A stretch of DNA of 64,000 nt from Methanobrevibacter olleyae (GTDB lineage: Archaea > Methanobacteriota > Methanobacteria > Methanobacteriales > Methanobacteriaceae): contig SUTG01000002.1 of NCBI GenBank assembly GCA_015063035.1, positions 1 to 64,000 on the forward strand. The letters run 5' to 3'. The notes beneath the pieces were generated by a model. The model ran no database searches. It saw only the letters and a list, made by a program, of their open reading frames with translations, and had not been told where the DNA came from. This document shows positions 32,626 through 42,457 of this stretch, piece after piece (position 1 is the first letter of the stretch; each line of letters begins with the position of its first letter). The translations under genes and the position numbers were made by a program.

Positions 32626-33018
32626 TCATTTTTTATCCTGATTCCCAATATTCAATGTAGTTCTGAACAGATGAATAATCTCATCACGTTTATTGTCTGA
32701 TGGAAAATCATCTTTTTCTAAAGTAAACATAGCCAATTCATAGATGATCTTATTCATTCTTTTTCCTTCATCAGTCAAATAGTACTCAGTCACTTTAGAA
32801 TTGTCCTCAAAAGTCCTTTTCCCAATCAATCCATTAGATTCCAAATCCTTTAAGCAACTTGTTAAAACCTTATTGCTCAAATCAGGCTTATCTTCTTTGA
32901 ACTCTTTAAATCTATTTTTACCAAAGAACAAATCTCTGATAATCTGAATATGCCACTTTTTGCTAAACAATTTTAAAGACTGATCTACAGGACAGATATT
33001 ACCCTCTAATTTTGTCAT
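32626..33018 (-). CDS. HxlR family winged-helix regulator
   Basis: A 130-residue transcription factor of the HxlR type. Typical elements are CPVDQSLKLFSKKWHIQIIRDLFFG, FKEFKEDKPDLSNKVLTSCLKDLESNGLI and the wing RTFEDNSKVTEYYLTDEGKRM. The N-terminal Cys (residue 8) corresponds to the redox-sensing Cys seen in some HxlR proteins; such a role here is inference. It is divergent from the PNPOx-like gene, with two related 16-bp sites between them that it may bind. Confidence 0.88.
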   Translation of the reverse strand: MTKLEGNICPVDQSLKLFSKKWHIQIIRDLFFGKNRFKEFKEDKPDLSNKVLTSCLKDLESNGLIGKRTFEDNSKVTEYYLTDEGKRMNKIIYELAMFTLEKDDFPSDNKRDEIIHLFRTTLNIGNQDKK

Positions 33019-33219: not shown

Positions 33220-33322
33220 AAAACCTTTATATTTACCTCTAAACAATCTATAATTAACGTTAAATCCAAAACGTTCAAAATAAATAAAAATATGAACTTA
33301 TATAAATTTGCGAGATGATAAA

Positions 33323-33727
33323 ATGGAAGAAGTAATTAAATTCTTAACTGAAAACCCACAACAATATTTGGCAACTACCGGACTTGATGGAAATGCAAAA
33401 GTAAGGCCTATCCTATTCTACTTTGCAGAAAATGACAAACCATACTTCTGTACTAGCAATCAAAAGCCTATGTACAAAGAATTGGAAGCTAACCCTAACT
33501 TTGAAATGACTGCAGCAACCCCTGAATTCCAATGGATAAGAATTGCAGGAAAAGTTGAATTTGTAGATGATTTGGAAATCAAACAAAAGGTCATTGAAGC
33601 AAATGAACTTGTAAAAGCATTATATGAAAGTGGAGACAACCCAATCTTTGAAGTATTTACAATTAGTGAAGGTAAGGCAACAATTGCTGACTTCTCTGGA
33701 GAACCTCCAAAAGTTTATGAAATATAA
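33323..33727 (+). CDS. Pyridoxamine 5'-phosphate oxidase-like flavin protein
   Basis: A 134-residue split-barrel protein of the PNPOx-like family: EEVIKFLTENPQQYLATTGLDGNAKVRPI at the start and EFQWIRIAGKVEFVDD near residue 72. These usually bind FMN, F420 or heme and reduce small molecules. I place the start at the ATG at 33323, which matches the family N terminus; an in-frame TTG lies 15 bases upstream. It is divergent from hxlR and probably controlled by it. No substrate is apparent. Confidence 0.85.
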   Translation: MEEVIKFLTENPQQYLATTGLDGNAKVRPILFYFAENDKPYFCTSNQKPMYKELEANPNFEMTAATPEFQWIRIAGKVEFVDDLEIKQKVIEANELVKALYESGDNPIFEVFTISEGKATIADFSGEPPKVYEI

Positions 33728-33873: not shown

Positions 33874-34683
33874 TCAATATTTATTTCCAAAATCATCCCA
33901 GAAATGAGTTTGGAAAACACTTCTTTTACTAAGTTCCTCTAATTTTAGGAACAGTTTCCAAGGCATTGACAAGTTCATGTATTCATCTGGAATCAATCTT
34001 CTCATATGAGCCCTTGCAGCAAAGTCAAGGGGACTTAATACAGGAACAGGATCATCACTATCATTTTGCTCAAAAGTGAATGCGCCAATAGCTTGACATG
34101 CAGATGCCTGAGGAGTCATGATGTGAGCGCTTTCAGCTCTGAATGAACCATTCAATTGGAGTATTGCAGATAATTCCATAGTGTTTAATGTAAATACTAC
34201 AGAATCAGGAAGTTCTCCCTCACCAAGAAGCTCTATTGGCTTAAAGACCACATATTCACCTTCATCATATAAAGGTCTGTTCTTGATGTTTTCATAAGCT
34301 GTATCAAAATCTGAAAAGATCCTTTCCCCTTTCTTAAACATTTCTTGAGTTGGTTTTGGCATGAAACTTAACCTATGAAGAAATGCTTCCTTATCCTTAG
34401 CGGATTCTGCGCCTAAAGATAAAAAGGTAGCTTGAAACTCCCTGTCTTCATCTGTCTTGAAACCAGTTCCCCAACCGAAACCTGCAGAGACCCCACCGCA
34501 AGTGATGTTTTCACGACCAAATGCAGTGATTTTCCTCTTAGCAATAGTTTGGGCTACAAGAGACATGACACAACCACCCCTACCGGCTTTAGGTGCCAAT
34601 GCATCCTCTGGCTTTTCATCTGCTTTTAAGAGAACAATAGGATTAAACCGCCCATTCAATTCCTTTACAATATTAAATTCCAT
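33874..34683 (-). CDS. DUF169 family protein
   Basis: A 269-residue soluble protein of the DUF169 family, seen in methanogens and anaerobes and without an established function. It has a cysteine in GGCVMSLVAQTIAKRKITAF (about 36-55) and a conserved ENITCGGVSAGFGWGTGF block near 60-75. A later segment, ESAHIMTPQASACQAIGAF, is also typical. The pattern of scattered Cys and Gly suggests a metal or cofactor site, which is inference. It is convergent with the PNPOx-like gene and divergent from the macrodomain gene. Confidence 0.75.
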   Translation of the reverse strand: MEFNIVKELNGRFNPIVLLKADEKPEDALAPKAGRGGCVMSLVAQTIAKRKITAFGRENITCGGVSAGFGWGTGFKTDEDREFQATFLSLGAESAKDKEAFLHRLSFMPKPTQEMFKKGERIFSDFDTAYENIKNRPLYDEGEYVVFKPIELLGEGELPDSVVFTLNTMELSAILQLNGSFRAESAHIMTPQASACQAIGAFTFEQNDSDDPVPVLSPLDFAARAHMRRLIPDEYMNLSMPWKLFLKLEELSKRSVFQTHFWDDFGNKY

Positions 34684-34880
34684 TTTAAAAACCCCATTTA
34701 AAAAATCATGAAAAAACTAATGTTTTATTCAATTTATATTTTATAGAAGGACATATAAAGATTTTACTATTAACTATTTTAAATACAAATTATTATCAAA
34801 TTAAGTATTAAAAATAAGATAATATATCTGAAAAGATATTAAAAATGATTAAATAAGATTTGAAGCCATGGCAATGATTA

Positions 34881-34896
34881 GTTACAAAAAAGTTAC
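34881..34896. promoter_or_regulatory. GTTAC-A6-GTTAC site upstream of the macrodomain gene
   Basis: Two GTTAC half-sites lie 11 bases apart, the same spacing as the sites beside hxlR. They sit just before a TATA-like GATTTATATATTG (34902-34914) and about 60 bases before the macrodomain start. A shared regulator is possible. Confidence 0.45.
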
Positions 34897-34958
34897 AAAA
34901 AAGATTTATATATTGCGAACAATATTTAATATAATAAATAAAAAGATGGAGGTAAAAA

Positions 34959-35780
34959 ATGAGCAAAGGCGATAAAAGTTTTGAAATTGATTTTCTTATA
35001 AGGGAATTGATTTCAGCTAATGGAAAATTGGATAGCAATATGAAAATTCCAAATGATTATAATGAGAAAAGAAAATTGCTTAGAGCTTTAATGAATACAC
35101 AAAGCCCAGTTAGATTAAGCGATAGATTCTATGAAATCCAAGATAGGCTCCTTAGTGAAGAGACTGACAATAAAAATCTAATCCGAGAGGAAGACATTGA
35201 GACAATAAGCAAGGATTCCAAGGAAACAGACTCAAAAATAGCCTTATGGCAGGGAGACATAACATGCCTTCAAGTTGATGCTATTGTTAATGCAGCAAAT
35301 AGCCAACTGTTAGGATGCTTTATTCCATTACACAACTGTATTGATAATCAGATACATTCCGCTGCAGGATTTCAGTTGAGAATGGATTGCTACAAAATTA
35401 TGGCAAAACAAGGCCATGAAGAGGCAAATGGAAAAGCAAAAATCACCTCAGCTTACAATTTGCCTTCAAAATATGTAATACACACAGTAGGTCCAGCCAT
35501 TCCTAATGGAAGAAAGCCAAATGATAAGGAAATAAAAGAGCTTAAAAACTGTTATAATTCCTGCCTAGAAATTGCAGACAATTATAACTTAAAATCAATA
35601 GCTTTTTGTTCCATATCAACTGGAGTATTTAATTTTCCAAAGGACCACGCTTCTGAACTAGCCATTAAAACTGTGAGAGATTATTTAAAACATCACCCTA
35701 AAACCAGTTTAAGAAAAATTATTTTTAATACATTTTCAGATGAAGCTACAGAAATCTATAAGAATAATCTGGAAAAATAA
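34959..35780 (+). CDS. Zinc-type macrodomain ADP-ribosyl hydrolase
   Basis: A 273-residue macrodomain protein expected to remove ADP-ribose from proteins. The N-terminal 75 residues show the family preface (KRKLLRALMNTQSPVRLSDRF...QDRLL). The macrodomain follows from about residue 93, with GDIT (99-102), DAIVNAANSQLLG (107-119), the zinc site Cys120-x4-His125-x-Cys127 within the segment GCFIPLHNCIDN, and STGVFNFP (220-227). This zinc-containing subtype is the one found in bacterial operons with class-M sirtuins, and a SirTM gene follows 125 bases downstream. GGAGGT precedes the ATG. It should reverse modification made by SirTM. Confidence 0.92.
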   Translation: MSKGDKSFEIDFLIRELISANGKLDSNMKIPNDYNEKRKLLRALMNTQSPVRLSDRFYEIQDRLLSEETDNKNLIREEDIETISKDSKETDSKIALWQGDITCLQVDAIVNAANSQLLGCFIPLHNCIDNQIHSAAGFQLRMDCYKIMAKQGHEEANGKAKITSAYNLPSKYVIHTVGPAIPNGRKPNDKEIKELKNCYNSCLEIADNYNLKSIAFCSISTGVFNFPKDHASELAIKTVRDYLKHHPKTSLRKIIFNTFSDEATEIYKNNLEK

Positions 35781-35904
35781 AAACAAATATCAAAAAATAC
35801 TAAAAAATAAGAATACTCCAGAAGGGAAAATAATGGCATTAAAGAGAATTATTGAAGAAATTGGTAAAAAATTGAATGAAACTAAAATGGGGGGAAATTA
35901 TCTT

Positions 35905-36807
35905 ATGGAAGATTATAGTATTAGAGTAGAAAAATTAAAAGAATTAGTTGAAACTGCAGATTACATATTAATAGGGGCAGGTGCTGGATTATCAAGCTCT
36001 GCAGGGCTTGAATACTCTGGAAAACGTTTCACAGACAATTTTGAAGAATTTATTGAAAAATATGGATTTCAAGACATGTACTCTTCAATGTTTTTTCCTT
36101 TCAAAAGTTCAGAGGAAAAATGGGCTTACTTCGCAAAACATGTTTATATTAACAATATTGCAATGGAAGGAACATACCTTTATAAAAAATTATTCAATCT
36201 CATAAAAGACAAGGATTATTTTGTAATCACAACAAACACTGACGACCAATTCCTGAAATCCGGCTTTGAAAAAGAAAGATTCTTTAGAACACAAGGGACT
36301 TATGCTAAACTGCAATGTTCAAAAGCTTGCCATAACAAATTATATGACAATGAAGAATTAATATTAGAGATGATTGAAAGAACAGACAATGAATTGAGAA
36401 TCCCTAGCGAACTGGTTCCAAAATGCCCTGTTTGTGGAGAGGAAATGGATTTGAACCTAAGAAAAGACCATCTATTTGTAGAAGATCTTGAGTGGCATGA
36501 ACAGAATCAAAGATATAATGATTTTAGAGAAAATGCATTAGGTGGGAATTTATTGCTTTTGGAATTTGGAATAGGTTTCAATACACCCATAATAATTCGT
36601 TTTCCATTTGATGATTTAACCCGATCTTATGAAAATGTAAATCTTGCCAGATTCAATAGAAGTCACTTGGAATTGACTGTTCAGCAAAATGGAAATTATT
36701 ATTTGCTTATGGAAGATGAATTGGACAAATATCTGACTTCAAATATTAAAGAGAGATATATTCCATTCAGTGAAGATATTGGCACAACCTTAGATAAGCT
36801 AATGTGA
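35905..36807 (+). CDS. Class-M sirtuin (SirTM), predicted protein ADP-ribosyltransferase
   Basis: A 300-residue sirtuin-fold protein of the SirTM class. Known SirTMs ADP-ribosylate a lipoylated GcvH-L carrier in bacteria and fungi. Visible are the NAD loop IGAGAGLSSSAGLEYSG (GAGAG at 24-28), ITTNTD with Asn111, and Gln130 in RTQG where ordinary sirtuins have the catalytic His, a SirTM hallmark. The zinc cysteines are Cys138, Cys142, Cys174 and Cys177, and FGIGFNTP is near 221. The start at 35905 aligns exactly with the paralogue downstream. In-frame ATGs at 35833 (after GAAGGGA) and 35887 are alternatives. It forms a probable operon with the macrodomain gene. Confidence 0.88.
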   Translation: MEDYSIRVEKLKELVETADYILIGAGAGLSSSAGLEYSGKRFTDNFEEFIEKYGFQDMYSSMFFPFKSSEEKWAYFAKHVYINNIAMEGTYLYKKLFNLIKDKDYFVITTNTDDQFLKSGFEKERFFRTQGTYAKLQCSKACHNKLYDNEELILEMIERTDNELRIPSELVPKCPVCGEEMDLNLRKDHLFVEDLEWHEQNQRYNDFRENALGGNLLLLEFGIGFNTPIIIRFPFDDLTRSYENVNLARFNRSHLELTVQQNGNYYLLMEDELDKYLTSNIKERYIPFSEDIGTTLDKLM

Positions 36808-36873
36808 TTTGATATATAAAATTAATTCCGCAAAAGATGAAATTGGAAAATATATAAAATTAATCATACATAT

Positions 36874-36963
36874 TTAAGATTTGAAAAATTAATGAATAGT
36901 TTATATTTACCTAAATATACTATAAAATAAAAAATTTTAAAACTATTGAAATTCAAATCTTAA
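36874..36963 (+). other. Nested inverted repeats between the two sirtuin genes
   Basis: A 12-bp stem (TTAAGATTTGAA at 36874-36885 with its complement at 36952-36963) encloses an 8-bp stem (AATAGTTT at 36895, AAACTATT at 36940). Inside these lies TATATTTACCTAAATATA (36902-36919). In an mRNA this would fold into one long hairpin between SirTM and its paralogue. Each arm alone could be chance in DNA this AT-rich; the nesting is what draws attention. Confidence 0.4.
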
Positions 36964-37052
36964 TATAAGTAAGAATCTAGTTAAAAAAATTCTTTAAAAA
37001 ATATAATTTGAAGCAAAAATTGAAAAATAAAGATTTTTATAGGTATGATTAT

Positions 37053-37910
37053 ATGGATGAATTATCAAAAAAAATACAAGATGTGAAAAACCTGATTGAA
37101 AATACAGACCACATTCTAATTGCTGGGGGAGAATATCTCTCAGAGCAGGCAGGACTTGACATTTACGGCCCTATGTTTACAGATAATTTTCAGGACTTCA
37201 TAGACAGATATGAATTTACCAATATGTACAATGGAACATTCTTCCCTTATAAATACAGCGAAGAGAAATGGGCTTACATTGCAAGATATTTCCATGTCTA
37301 CTTAAATTTCGAGCCAACCCAATTATACAAAAAGATTTACAGACTAGTTGAAGATAAGGATTATTTTGTCATAACAAGCACTTTTGATGAGCAATTCTAT
37401 AAGACAGGATTTCCAAAATCAAAGATCTATGCAAGCAATGGAGACTGCAGACACTTGCAATGCAGCGAACCTTGCCATAACGAACTTTACGATTTTATCG
37501 AATTGATTGACAGAATGGTCAAGCAGACAGACGATAAAAGAAAAATCCCTCGTCAGCTCATCCCCCAATGCCCAAAATGTGGAGGGTCAATGGATTTGCA
37601 CTTGACTACAAACAAGAACTTCATACAGGATGCCGATTGGAAAAAGCAGCATGAGAAATATGGAAGGTTCACAACCAGAAACAAAGATTCAAAAACTTTA
37701 GTATTGCAATTCGGAAGCCCTAAAGTATTTGAAAAAACAATTAGGGAAAATCCTAAATGGCATTTGGTAAGATTCATGGAACCAAAAGGAAAGATTGGAA
37801 ACATAGGATCTTCCCTATTCAAGCCATTCAAAAAGAACACCGAATATTTGAATAGGATTATAACTTTTGAAGAGCCAATAGAAGAGATAGTTGATCAATT
37901 ATTGAAATGA
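37053..37910 (+). CDS. Degenerate SirTM paralogue (predicted inactive sirtuin)
   Basis: A 285-residue protein clearly homologous to the preceding SirTM along its length (TDNFQDFIDRYEF, EEKWAYIAR, KDYFVIT are shared). The key sites have changed: GAGAGLSSSAG is now AGGEYLSEQAG, Asn of TTNTD is Thr110, Gln of TQG is Asn129, and FGIGFNTP is FGSPKVFEK. All four zinc cysteines (137, 141, 173, 176) remain, with an extra Cys132. It therefore looks like a folded but non-catalytic partner or target-binding protein rather than a decayed gene, since the frame is open. The start at 37053 matches the SirTM start; an in-frame TTG lies at 37008. Confidence 0.8.
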   Translation: MDELSKKIQDVKNLIENTDHILIAGGEYLSEQAGLDIYGPMFTDNFQDFIDRYEFTNMYNGTFFPYKYSEEKWAYIARYFHVYLNFEPTQLYKKIYRLVEDKDYFVITSTFDEQFYKTGFPKSKIYASNGDCRHLQCSEPCHNELYDFIELIDRMVKQTDDKRKIPRQLIPQCPKCGGSMDLHLTTNKNFIQDADWKKQHEKYGRFTTRNKDSKTLVLQFGSPKVFEKTIRENPKWHLVRFMEPKGKIGNIGSSLFKPFKKNTEYLNRIITFEEPIEEIVDQLLK

Positions 37911-38021
37911 TCTAAATCAAATGACAATTGTAAATGGTCAATGAAAAAATTCATTGATTTTTAACTATTCTAATTTAAACTATTCCTTAAATTGTAAATT
38001 CTTATAATTTTAATCAAGCGT

Positions 38022-39395
38022 TTAATTATTTGCTTTTATTAATCTTTTAATATGCAAATCTGCCCATATCATTGTTATTGTATTCACCACTATCTCACCA
38101 AGGATTATTCCCCACCATGCACCATATTCCCCATAACCAAGCACAATGGATAAAAGTATTGCAAATGCGAGAGTGAAAACAGTCTCACGCAATATTGTCT
38201 GGAACATTGCAGTGATTCCATTTCCAGTCCCTTGGAAAACAAATGTTGATGTGCACCCATAACCCATTGTTGGGAAATAAATGACTATTACAGATAAGAA
38301 TGCAATAAGCTGTGGAGTCAATCTTGTGCTTGTGCCTGCATATGCAAATACTGAAACAATTTGAGGAGCGAACAAATAAACGATTATGGCAGCTAAAAAT
38401 CCGAATAAAATGGCTATTTTCATTGAATATCTGTGAGCGAATAAAATCTCCTCATACTTTTTAGCGCCATAATTTGCACCTACAACTGATATCAAAGCTG
38501 TAGCTATTGCAATGATAGGGGTTGTTGCAATTGTAACAACTCTCCAACCGGTTGAATATACAGCAACAGCATCCGTTGAAGCCACAACAACAAGCAAAAG
38601 TGAGAACAAAGCCGCAAACAATGCATTATTTATCAATTCCAGACTTGCAGGCAAACCCACTTTCAAGATATCGATTGAAATGGATCTGCTGAATTTATAA
38701 TTGGATAAGAATGGCTTTAAGTAAGTATCCTTCTTAATGTAGAACCAATAGAACAAAACAATATTTACAAGCAATAGGGAAATCAATGTTGCAATGGCTG
38801 CACCTTTAACTCCCAAATTCAGGCCATAAATGAAAATAGGGTCCAGAATCATGTTTAAAATTGAAGAGAACAGCATAGCATACATTGTCCTGCTTGCATC
38901 ACCTTCACCCCTAAGGACCCCGTACAATGCATTTGATAGAATAACAAGAATGGAAGCGGAAGATAAGATTAGCCCATAATCCATTGCATAATCAATTGTG
39001 CTTCCTGCACCCATTCCAAGGAGAATGTCCTTAAGGAAAATAAGCAGCAGAATTGTTGTAATTATTGAAATGATTACAGTGATGAAAATTGTGTGAATTG
39101 CCCCATTATTTGCCTTTTTTCTATTTTCCTCACCGATATACTTCGATAATGCAGAGGCGGAACCTGCTCCCAATCCATTTCCGATTCCCATAAGTGCTAT
39201 GAAAATGGGGCTTACAAAACCAACACCTGCAAGTGCATCTGCACCTAAACCGGATACCCAAATTGCATCGATGACACTGTAAAGGCTTGTGATAAACAAT
39301 GAAATGATAAGAGGAAGTGACATCTTCCATAAGGCCTTCTTAGGGTCTCCCAAAATGGAGTCCACTCCATCATGTCTTAGATTATTTTCATTCAT
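38022..39395 (-). CDS. MATE family efflux transporter
   Basis: A 457-residue, twelve-helix multidrug/antimicrobial extrusion transporter driven by an ion gradient. Conserved MATE segments are visible: ALWKMSLPLIISLFITSLYSVIDAIWVSGLG at the start, GALIAGVG-like ADALAGVGFVSP, and GLGAGSASALSKYIG. I start at the ATG at 39395 because GTGAT lies just upstream; an in-frame TTG exists 18 bases earlier. A second MATE gene lies at 55600. Its substrate is unknown. Confidence 0.9.
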   Translation of the reverse strand: MNENNLRHDGVDSILGDPKKALWKMSLPLIISLFITSLYSVIDAIWVSGLGADALAGVGFVSPIFIALMGIGNGLGAGSASALSKYIGEENRKKANNGAIHTIFITVIISIITTILLLIFLKDILLGMGAGSTIDYAMDYGLILSSASILVILSNALYGVLRGEGDASRTMYAMLFSSILNMILDPIFIYGLNLGVKGAAIATLISLLLVNIVLFYWFYIKKDTYLKPFLSNYKFSRSISIDILKVGLPASLELINNALFAALFSLLLVVVASTDAVAVYSTGWRVVTIATTPIIAIATALISVVGANYGAKKYEEILFAHRYSMKIAILFGFLAAIIVYLFAPQIVSVFAYAGTSTRLTPQLIAFLSVIVIYFPTMGYGCTSTFVFQGTGNGITAMFQTILRETVFTLAFAILLSIVLGYGEYGAWWGIILGEIVVNTITMIWADLHIKRLIKANN

Positions 39396-39562
39396 TTTAT
39401 CACAAATTATCAAATAGTTTTGAATACTTAAAATTAATTCTTAAAATAGCTTAAAAATCTTTAAAACTTGAATAAATTAACTGTTTTTAATTCTTTTAAG
39501 TTTAATCCCTATAATTATATATTAATCAAAATTTATATAAGTAACTATCAAGATGTGGTATT

Positions 39563-39976: not shown

Positions 39977-40550
39977 GGCCATGTATTCTAAAAATCGAAA
40001 AATCACAAAAACAATTCCATTAATTTAAATAAAAATTCGATTAATATTTTAAGCATTTAGTAATTAAAATATAAATCTAATCAACCATACATTTCATTAT
40101 TCCATATCTAAAGCTTTTTTTAAAAAATAAAACTAACCTTATCAATGGCTACTCACACCAATATTACCATTTTTATTAAAATTTTAAAAATTTATAATTT
40201 AAAAAAATTTATTATTCCTAAAAATTTATAATTTATAAAAATTTATTATTTATAAAAATTTATAAAATAAAGAATTGAAGATTTTAAAAATTTTTCACAA
40301 CACTCCTTTTTAAAAATTTTTTATTGAACTATTTTTCAAGCTTATTTTTAAAAACAAATATCTAAAAAAAGACATTGTTGTGTTTTAAATTTTTCAAAAA
40401 ATTACGAACTGACATCAATATTAAAATAAAGTTGCAAAATTGCTTTAATTTTATAATAATATCCTAAAAACTTTTTATAAACGAAAATAATTTAAATAAT
40501 AAAGATAAATAAAAAAATAAAGAATATTAAGCATTATTAAGGTGAAATAT
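39977..40550. other. AT-rich intergenic region with repeated AAAATTTATAATTT
   Basis: The 574 bases contain four to five imperfect copies of (T/A)AAAATTTATAATTTA or AAAATTTATTATT at 40180-40275. A TATA-like CTTTTTATAAACG near 40471-40483 lies about 70 bases before the next gene. The repeats are simple and AT-only; no RNA gene or operator is evident. Confidence 0.4.
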
Positions 40551-41408
40551 ATGATTGACGAAATTTTCGAAGAGTATAAAAAGCAGGAAAATGACAACAT
40601 TATCCTTATGACAAAGCACTTTGGAATTGATGTGAAGTGTCTCCTCTATCCAAATATAAACAACGATTTTGTAGTCATTTTAGATAGCGTAAATCTCTTA
40701 AATGAAAAAGTGGACTCATTTAGGATTATAGATATTTTTTATGAAAAGATCATTAAGGAAGGGATATTGTTAGGAATCGGTTTTGGCAAAGCCCATATGA
40801 TAAAGAAGATTTTAGAATTTCCCCTTAGCAAAAGTGAAATCCTTGATATGGATCTAAAGGAATACCATGAATATTACCCTCATTTTGACGAAAACAAATC
40901 AGAATTTGAAAAAGTTGATGAGGATGGAATCGAAAGACTCAAAGTGTCTGTAAATGATGAGCCAAGCCAACTTGAAGTAGAAATATCTGCAGTGGCATAC
41001 ATCTCCAAGATAATTGATGATAATCATAAGGAATTAAAGAAGATTCTATTTGAAGAGTTTTTAGATGAATTCAAAATAGATAGGAAAAAAGCCAAATTCA
41101 CATCCAATAAAAAGATTAGGATAGATGGTGAAAATCTAAGGCCAAAAATTAAATCCAGATTTTTCAAAGAGAAAAGAGGGAAATATAAAATCAAGAAGAT
41201 AATTGAGGACTACTTTGAATATATGATAGATATGGGTTTGGACATAGGAATCAGAACAGGATTGAGATTGGTTATTGAAGACATTCAAAAGGACATCATG
41301 CCCTATGAGATATTGGGAAACTTATCTGAAACGGAAACTATGATGTATATTCAAAAGGAGCATAGCGATTATATCTATAAGAAATACGACACTAAAGTTA
41401 GCATTTAA
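40551..41408 (+). CDS. Unknown protein, paralogue of the next gene, with twin Gly motifs
   Basis: I do not recognise this 285-residue protein. It is acidic to neutral, soluble and largely helical. A motif IIKEGILLGIGFGK (residues 67-80) recurs near the C terminus as YMIDMGLDIGIRTGLR (224-239), suggesting an internal duplication. The start is the ATG at 40551 behind GGTGA; a GTG 9 bases upstream overlaps that site. The next gene encodes a diverged paralogue with the same two motifs, so the pair arose by gene duplication. No link to a known pathway is visible. Confidence 0.65.
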   Translation: MIDEIFEEYKKQENDNIILMTKHFGIDVKCLLYPNINNDFVVILDSVNLLNEKVDSFRIIDIFYEKIIKEGILLGIGFGKAHMIKKILEFPLSKSEILDMDLKEYHEYYPHFDENKSEFEKVDEDGIERLKVSVNDEPSQLEVEISAVAYISKIIDDNHKELKKILFEEFLDEFKIDRKKAKFTSNKKIRIDGENLRPKIKSRFFKEKRGKYKIKKIIEDYFEYMIDMGLDIGIRTGLRLVIEDIQKDIMPYEILGNLSETETMMYIQKEHSDYIYKKYDTKVSI

Positions 41409-41503
41409 ATCTAATGAATATTGAATTTATAGAATTTGCAGACTTTATGGAATTCAGATGGGGGTGTTTATAAAGGCAGTTTATGAATAAAAAAGGTGAA
41501 AAG

Positions 41504-42457
41504 ATGAGCTATTTAATAAATGAAATTTATGAGCTTTACGAAAAGCATTTGGAGATAACAGAACCTGTTTTGAAGGATATGGGAGTTGAAGACAATATTC
41601 ATAATTATCTTATTGATGTGAATATAGACCTTGAAATATTGCTTGAATCCAATGACATAATCAGATATGAGTATGATGAGCTTCAAGAGAAAGTGAAGCA
41701 GGCATATGATGAGATATTCAAGGAAGGAATATTGTTTGGAATAATAGTCGGGAAAATCATCAAGCTAAACAACTGCTTGGAAGATAAGGAAAAGTACAAT
41801 GAATATCTCGGTAGAAACTATGATTATTACACTGAATACAGCTTTAAGATAGATTTCTTCAAAAAGGTAATTCCACCAATAAAAATCAGAAAATCCACAA
41901 GGGAAAGCAGTCCAAGACAATTGAATTACAGAAACAAAAAGTATGAGGAAAAAAGGAAAGTCAATGGAATCAATGTAAGCTGTGAGGAAATCAAGGATTC
42001 ATACTACACAATCAATGAGGAAATAATTGAATATAAAAGGATAATAGAAGAAGGGGGAATAATGAAATTCCTAGAAGATGAGGGAATTGATAAAGAGATA
42101 AAGAACCAATACTCAAACATAAATGAAAAATTATTCGAAAAGCTATTTAATATTTTAGAAGTAAATCTGAACAATGCGGAAAGGGCTTGTCAAAATTACT
42201 ATCGCTTCGATACATTTACAGCCCATGACATGTTTGTATCAAATTTGTTTGCAACCCTGGAAGGGGAATTCGAAGCGAGGGAACTGATTAATTTCTACTT
42301 AAAACATGTCTTCTTTAAAGGAATAGACATTGGAATATTGAATGGGAAAATGTTTTTTGTATATGATATCCAAGAGGGATTCTTGAATTACTATAAAATA
42401 CAAAACATGAGCCTTGAAGAAAAAAGCAGATATTTGATTAAAGAATTGTTTGATTAA
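41504..42457 (+). CDS. Unknown protein, paralogue of the preceding gene
   Basis: A 317-residue, mostly helical protein of unknown function. It shares with its upstream neighbour the opening NEIYELYEK (IDEIFEEYK there). It also shares the motif IFKEGILFGIIVGK (71-84), and its C-terminal copy FFKGIDIGILNGK (270-282) is followed by YDIQEG. The middle (about 130-200) is a Lys/Arg/Glu-rich insertion not shared. GGTGA precedes the chosen ATG at 41504; an earlier in-frame ATG at 41483 lacks a site. A terminator-like stem straddles the stop codon. Confidence 0.65.
   Translation: MSYLINEIYELYEKHLEITEPVLKDMGVEDNIHNYLIDVNIDLEILLESNDIIRYEYDELQEKVKQAYDEIFKEGILFGIIVGKIIKLNNCLEDKEKYNEYLGRNYDYYTEYSFKIDFFKKVIPPIKIRKSTRESSPRQLNYRNKKYEEKRKVNGINVSCEEIKDSYYTINEEIIEYKRIIEEGGIMKFLEDEGIDKEIKNQYSNINEKLFEKLFNILEVNLNNAERACQNYYRFDTFTAHDMFVSNLFATLEGEFEARELINFYLKHVFFKGIDIGILNGKMFFVYDIQEGFLNYYKIQNMSLEEKSRYLIKELFD

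Follow-up and report, generated by a model that had tools for sequence, protein, structure and literature searches.

A degenerate class-M sirtuin encoded beside a Zn-Macro/SirTM pair in Methanobrevibacter olleyae as a candidate catalytically dead partner

What can a sirtuin do that has lost the residues for binding and activating nicotinamide adenine dinucleotide (NAD) and is encoded next to an intact relative? This question is raised by a 64,000-nt stretch of contig SUTG01000002.1 (GCA_015063035.1, genome 95.6% complete) from Methanobrevibacter olleyae, hereafter the window. It encodes a zinc macrodomain hydrolase (P1), a class-M sirtuin (SirTM; P2) and a degenerate SirTM paralogue (P3). An earlier note, made from the sequence alone, had recognized these three genes, and their identities and places were borne out by the sequence and by matches to NF003163 and the structures 8RSI and 5A3A. 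On balance, we slightly favor the explanation that P3 is catalytically dead and serves as a dedicated partner or regulator of P2 (or P2's substrate) in a redox-linked minimal ADP-ribosylation module. The genes are arranged as follows.

34959–35780, plus strand: P1, zinc macrodomain (Zn-Macro) ADP-ribosyl hydrolase (NF003163, PDB 8RSI, Cx4HxC and NAAN motifs)
35905–36807, plus strand: P2, intact class-M sirtuin, predicted mono-ADP-ribosyltransferase (5A3A match, motifs, AlphaFold2 (AF2) model)
36808–37052, no strand: AT-rich P2–P3 spacer, 245 nt (from sequence)
37053–37910, plus strand: P3, degenerate SirTM paralogue or pseudo-SirTM (5A3A match, motif losses, purifying selection, fold)

P1 matched the protein-ADP-ribose hydrolase family NF003163 over its full length (9–272) with a score of 346 bits (cut-off 272), and its best PDB match was 8RSI, the MorMacro protein of Methanobrevibacter oralis (E 1.6e-88). 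The Zn-Macro family is defined in PMC11490716 by a Cx(4)HxC Zn-loop, a NAAN motif and an N-terminal extension; in P1 the loop reads C-FIPL-H-N-C, and the other two features are present. P2 matched SpySirTM (PDB 5A3A) at E 3e-50, and all of its motifs are intact: TTNTD, TQG, NLR, GIGFNTP and the four zinc cysteines, with GAGAG as the NAD loop. Residues are numbered here as in SpySirTM (Asn118, Gln137, Arg192, GVGx[NT]TP; PMC4518038). P2 has Asn118, Arg192, GVGx[NT]TP, an adjoining Zn-macrodomain and QG in the position of the catalytic HG, and, as a member of the SirTM class, it is predicted to be a protein ADP-ribosyltransferase without deacylase activity.

P3 also matched 5A3A (E 8e-35). Compared with P2, it carries AGGEY for GAGAG, TSTFD for TTNTD and NG for QG; GIGFNTP is gone, and the four cysteines are kept. 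A motif alignment was made of the four P3 proteins found in the genome survey given below and 78 other SirTMs (77 Methanobacteriaceae loci and SpySirTM). Asn118, Gln137, Arg192 and the four cysteines are present in all 78, and the G[VI]GxxTP pyrophosphate motif is present in 76, the remaining two being gapped there. All four P3s have Glu34, Tyr35, Asn137 (NG for QG), Thr192 and a deleted pyrophosphate loop, and all retain the four zinc cysteines and Asp120. In this alignment, the loss of Gln137, Arg192 and the pyrophosphate loop is confined to P3 and its three orthologues. The columns fixed specifically in P3 (otherwise at least 90% fixed among SirTMs) cluster at SpySirTM positions 31–35, 134–137, 190–192 and 227–241. 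The earlier note had described the NAD loop, Asn111, Gln130 and the GxGxN loop as changed and the four cysteines as kept. Both residue changes are correct in P2 numbering (Asn118 and Gln137 of SpySirTM), and the description fits the window copy. Its Asn part is not general: Asn118 is missing only in the window P3 (TSTFDEQ), and all three orthologues (G001, G013 and G018) keep it (TTNFDEQ). The loss of the catalytically needed Arg192 in all four P3s was unmentioned there.

Judged by its motifs, P3 is a SirTM descendant and not a functional SirTM, the class-specific Gln137, Arg192 and GVGx[NT]TP all being absent. Its descent is indicated by the sirtuin fold, the four zinc cysteines and a position nested among Methanobrevibacter SirTMs, within the SirTM clade of genera g1 and g14 (support 98/99), on a long stem. 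According to PMC4518038, mutation of Asn118, Gln137 or Arg192 in SpySirTM dramatically lowers activity, and by this analogy P3 very likely lacks ADP-ribosyltransferase activity. The overall fold is predicted to be retained. In AF2 models built on alignments of the locus proteins, P3 showed a full sirtuin fold (pLDDT 89, TM score 0.83 to 5A3A) and P2 was similar (pLDDT 93, TM score 0.84–0.88), so that the structure prediction proposed in the earlier note gave two models matching SpySirTM.

A gene with so many catalytic losses, Asn118 being an additional one in the window copy, and with a patchy occurrence might be taken for a functionless, decaying duplicate. Pairwise dN/dS (ratio of nonsynonymous to synonymous rates) in the same genomes was 0.06–0.07 for P3, 0.07–0.12 for P2 and 0.09–0.13 for P1, as far as pairs were estimable, dS being saturated in several. 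When a codon model was fitted on the tree of the four taxa, the optimum omega was about 0.05 for all three genes alike, and for P3 this value was better than omega 1 by 245 log-likelihood units. P3 orthologues share 77–82% protein identity between species, with reading frames intact at synonymous saturation. P3 is under strong purifying selection, like its neighbours. Decay, which is contradicted by this selection test and by the preserved frames, sequence and cysteines, is highly improbable, and the earlier note's concern that the third gene might be unconserved or under relaxed selection did not materialize: the gene is kept in four genomes and its selection is not relaxed. The strong constraint, together with the new invariant Glu34, Tyr35, Asn137 and Thr192 at the old active site, could also be expected from a new catalytic activity on the sirtuin scaffold. 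We consider this quite improbable, as P3 has no evident new catalytic motif and the change of Asn118 in the window copy did not visibly alter the constraint.

The survey covered 152 Methanobacteriota genomes, with locus counts taken over 78 SirTM loci. SirTM was found in 75 genomes and P3 in four of these, in each case directly downstream of SirTM; two of the four P3 loci are from the uncultured Methanobrevibacter metagenome-assembled genomes RUG748 and SRR873602_bin.12. In 76/78 loci, the macrodomain gene immediately precedes SirTM in the same orientation, and a usual separation of the two genes, which the earlier note had named as damaging to its reading, was thus not observed. The gene order in the genus is (HxlR, PPOX), DUF169, macro, SirTM, [P3], [NAMPT], MATE. 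The slot between SirTM and MATE holds both P3 and NAMPT in G013 and G018, and P3 alone in the window. One more macro/SirTM pair of this assembly, on contig G000:C61 (locus L039), looked like a duplicated system. Over 12.9 kb, however, the contig shows 99.9% identity to G134, a genome of another genus; it is probably binning contamination and was left out of the analysis.

Comparison with the sister genome G016, which lacks P3, outlined the following segment.

34650–38000, no strand: exchangeable cassette P1–P2–P3, diverging from G016 between near-identical flanks

The flanking proteins are 93–100% identical between the two genomes (HxlR 99, PPOX 100, DUF169 96, MATE 93), and between these flanks identity is 76% for the macrodomain protein and 80% for SirTM. 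Sliding DNA identity is 0.85–1.00 outside the block and about 0.45–0.81 over P1 and P2; it falls near 34.65 kb and recovers near 38.0–38.1 kb. Since a single divergent block lies between G016-like flanks, P1, P2 and P3 were probably exchanged together, and the window therefore supplies direct evidence that the three genes belong together as one unit. Another possibility considered was that P3 arose by recent duplication of the P2 of this window. In the tree, P3 branches outside the clade formed by the P2 proteins of the genus, yet a single clade of P3 and P2 was not rejected (p=0.27); the sisterhood of P3 to this clade is neither supported nor rejected by the sequences.

Are such pairs peculiar to Methanobrevibacter? 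Bacterial sampling consisted of plasmids, searched by tblastn with P3 and then for paralogues. The first search found tandem SirTM pairs on plasmids of Mesobacillus foraminis and Paenibacillus sp. 37, and the second found further pairs on Lactobacillaceae plasmids.

Tandem SirTM pairs on Bacillota plasmids: L149, 3009–4870; L150, 1680–3491; L151, 3142–5326; L152, 3115–5287; L154, 3112–5302

The first protein of the pair (A) retains Asn118, Gln137, Arg192 and GVGxxTP. In the second (B), the NAD loop is of the ASNG type, position 137 is Glu, the pyrophosphate loop lacks TP, and Arg192 is lost and Asp120 kept; the Lactobacillaceae B copy includes a cupin-like C-terminal part. At both Bacillales loci, the pair is followed by a protein annotated as HD-type, PncB and an isochorismatase-family protein. 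No macrodomain is annotated beside the Bacillota pairs inspected. Common descent of P3 and the B proteins was rejected (approximately unbiased test with P3 and B held together, p=0.004), and the dismantling has therefore evolved at least twice. These separate pairs point to a recurrent pairing logic. No published report of active and degenerate SirTM pairs was found in the literature searched, this absence being weak evidence. Thus, the archaeal variant with an inactive sirtuin suggested in the earlier note holds as a conserved, selected and catalytically degraded paralogue, and is too broad as a statement on archaea: P3 occurs in 4/75 SirTM-bearing genomes, and Bacillota have parallel pairs. 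As a tentative generalization, SirTMs may repeatedly become two-subunit enzymes, in which a cis-encoded dead SirTM controls the active one or chooses its targets, independently in Methanobrevibacter (P2/P3) and on Bacillota plasmids (A/B), in some cases accompanied by salvage genes devoted to nicotinamide or nicotinate; we regard this as quite conceivable, short of probable.

Salvage genes were also met in the archaeal genus. The gene for nicotinamide phosphoribosyltransferase, NAMPT, follows closely after SirTM or P3 in five genomes (L025, 4944–6377; L026, 345–1778; L032, 59–1480; L035, 2662–4086; L036, 8335–9578), and G002 keeps it at the same spot without macro/SirTM (L143, 9059–10489). NAMPT as an obligate partner was ruled out, because it is missing from the window genome and G001, and occurs in G002 without SirTM.

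Could P3 act as a sensor, its remodelled pocket taking up nicotinamide, NADH, ADP-ribose or another nucleotide and signalling this to SirTM? Asp120, which contacts nicotinamide in SpySirTM, is shared by every P3 and the Bacillota B proteins, Asn118 is present in three of the four P3s, and the segments equivalent to Gln137 and Arg192 are invariant across them. The salvage genes beside SirTM, that is NAMPT at the five genus loci and PncB with the isochorismatase-family gene at two Bacillota A/B loci, would suit such a role. However, deletion of the diphosphate loop makes it unlikely that whole NAD or ADP-ribose binds in the usual way; the former pocket is conserved equally to the rest of the protein, not above background (p=0.23); and the window genome and G001 have P3 without NAMPT, as G002 has NAMPT without SirTM. 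We therefore rate a sensor as rather unlikely.

The substrate of the module is the next question. No GcvH-L was found in the window or the genome, where the sole GCV_H-like match falls on pyruvate carboxylase subunit B (PycB), in its biotinyl domain, and no LplA, the sole LplA-like match being BirA. A lipoyl carrier elsewhere in the genome was ruled out, as these matches are PycB and BirA. The absence of GcvH-L and lipoate ligase, claimed in the earlier note for the window, thus extends to the genome. This absence is not new in itself, since PMC11490716 describes a macro/SirTM pair without GcvH-L and LplA as the minimal Zn-Macro/SirTM operon, M. oralis included; MorMacro was unable to demodify GcvH-L. 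P1 and P2 form such a minimal operon, to which P3 is an addition in four genomes, and the GcvH-L carrier and LplA2 ligase of extended, lipoyl-dependent SirTM operons are lacking here. Speculatively, the PycB biotinyl domain might be a candidate substrate in archaea.

Extended operons co-encode their substrate, according to PMC4518038 and PMC11490716. By this logic P3 itself, encoded in cis and exchanged with writer and eraser in a genome without GcvH-L and LplA, could be the ADP-ribose acceptor of the adjoining SirTM, replacing GcvH-L as the operon-encoded target. We find this unlikely: 71 of the 75 SirTM-bearing genomes lack P3, so the ancestral substrate must have been something else, and P3 has a sirtuin fold, unlike a lipoyl domain.

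Further evidence on the context of the module comes from the neighbouring genes in the window.

32626–33018, minus strand: HxlR/DUF24-type regulator with two conserved cysteines (PF01638)
33308–33727, plus strand: PPOX/PNPOx-like flavin (or F420) protein (PF01243)
33874–34683, minus strand: DUF169 (COG2043) protein, commonly encoded upstream in the genus (PF02596, E 2e-29)
38022–39413, minus strand: MATE transporter, outside the module, marking the conserved right-hand edge of the variable slot (TIGR00797, genus gene maps)

HxlR is encoded within 4 kb of SirTM in 48/78 loci of three genera (44 divergent), with its cysteine columns conserved in 47/48 and 46/48, and PPOX within 4 kb in 14 loci of three genera. 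DUF169 is near SirTM in 11/15 genus loci and one g8 locus. The best NCBIfam match of the window HxlR, below the cut-off, is the redox factor RrpB, and with its two conserved cysteines this regulator is likely a thiol/redox sensor. The highly divergent SirTM loci L141 and L142 also have HxlR and PPOX, and on bacterial plasmids (Treponema, Enterococcus) macro/SirTM lies beside PPOX and an Rrf2 regulator. Since published work has linked SirTMs to oxidative stress, these HxlR and PPOX neighbours suggest redox control of the module. In genus g11 (loci L092–L138), the macro/SirTM pair lies within a different conserved neighbourhood, and the module has therefore moved between genera.

Based on the above, we suggest the following mechanism. 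P2 would write and P1 erase a reversible protein mono-ADP-ribosylation without the lipoyl-carrier part, in a module whose redox role may be reflected in the adjoining redox-type HxlR regulator and PPOX flavoprotein. P3, keeping the sirtuin fold and zinc module minus the residues that bind or activate NAD, would tune P2 activity or present the acceptor; we infer that it pairs with P2, physically or functionally. The reading of P3 as a dead partner is supported by its place directly downstream of SirTM in every case, the block exchange, the kept fold, the selection, the recurrent Bacillota pairs, the selective loss of the NAD-site residues and the existence of a mutually dependent sirtuin pair in humans, FAM118A/FAM118B. 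Several points weigh against it. Asn118 in three of the four P3s, Asp120 in all four and pocket conservation at background make another ligand or activity possible. P3 accompanies SirTM in only 4 of the 15 genomes of the genus that have SirTM, which means that in the others SirTM functions without it. In genus g14, neither HxlR nor PPOX occurs near SirTM (0/11). Finally, FAM118A/FAM118B, the best precedent for sirtuin paralogues needing each other, requires the active sites of both partners, unlike a dead P3. The roles of substrate, adaptor and regulator named in the earlier note are not distinguishable from these data.

P3 is thus a real, selected addition to the published minimal operon, and what is new is P3 with its independent bacterial counterparts, not the missing carrier. 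According to PMC11490716, it is unknown what SirTM signalling acts on and how it is controlled outside GcvH-L operons. A co-encoded, selected pseudo-SirTM moving with writer and eraser provides a tangible starting point for studying regulation or substrate selection in archaea. The pairs of active and dead SirTMs that arose independently in Bacillota suggest a general, testable principle, and the linkage to HxlR and PPOX provides a redox trigger that can be tested in a strict anaerobe without lipoyl carriers, the host being a rumen methane-producing archaeon.

Some details of the locus should be added. The true start of P2 is probably ATG 35905 rather than the open reading frame opening at 35740, because an SD (Shine–Dalgarno)-like GGGGG lies upstream and orthologues start there; P3 probably starts at ATG 37053, equivalent in position to the ATG of its orthologues, TTG 37008 being less likely. 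The 245-nt spacer may hold a separate promoter for P3. A sigma-70-type promoter/terminator scan at the locus gave nothing better than shuffles, archaeal promoters lying outside its model. Rfam gave zero matches around the locus, and PADLOC gave no match that would place it in an antiphage system. SirTM matches on viral contigs were two fragments, one a macro/SirTM pair. Among phages, SirTM-like sequence was met only in two unannotated 5.5-kb records, OR849908.1 (3718–4545) and MT838206.1 (1319–1570), where it is possibly host DNA. Elsewhere in the window (40542–42457), two adjoining, fast-diverging members of a single gene family (288 and 324 aa) keep their position across the genus and have neither a Pfam nor an NCBIfam match.

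Among known systems, the minimal Zn-Macro/SirTM operon (M. oralis MorMacro 8RSI; Enterococcus, Treponema; Rack 2015, Ariza 2024) is alike in its two adjoining families and in having neither GcvH-L nor LplA, and P1 is closest to MorMacro; the window differs by P3 and by the HxlR, PPOX and DUF169 neighbours, which are unmentioned in the available parts of Rack 2015 and Ariza 2024. The extended operon of Staphylococcus and Streptococcus (GcvH-L, Zn-Macro, SirTM, LplA, LLM, OYE) shares the macro and SirTM core with flavin enzymes nearby, whereas the window and genome have no lipoyl carrier or ligase, and the flavoprotein (PPOX) and regulator are others. The Bacillota tandem pairs show the same succession of an active SirTM and a paralogue in which Gln137 is replaced, Arg192 is missing and GVGxNTP is broken; they differ in having no annotated macrodomain, in the PncB and isochorismatase-family genes at two loci, in the cupin-like tail of B in Lactobacillaceae and in their separate origin. 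Human FAM118A and FAM118B (PMC12700824) are SIR2_2/ThsA-like and not SirTM, and both active sites are needed there, whereas P3 has lost its own; they are alike in being two sirtuin paralogues acting jointly, their mixture being far more active than either protein alone.

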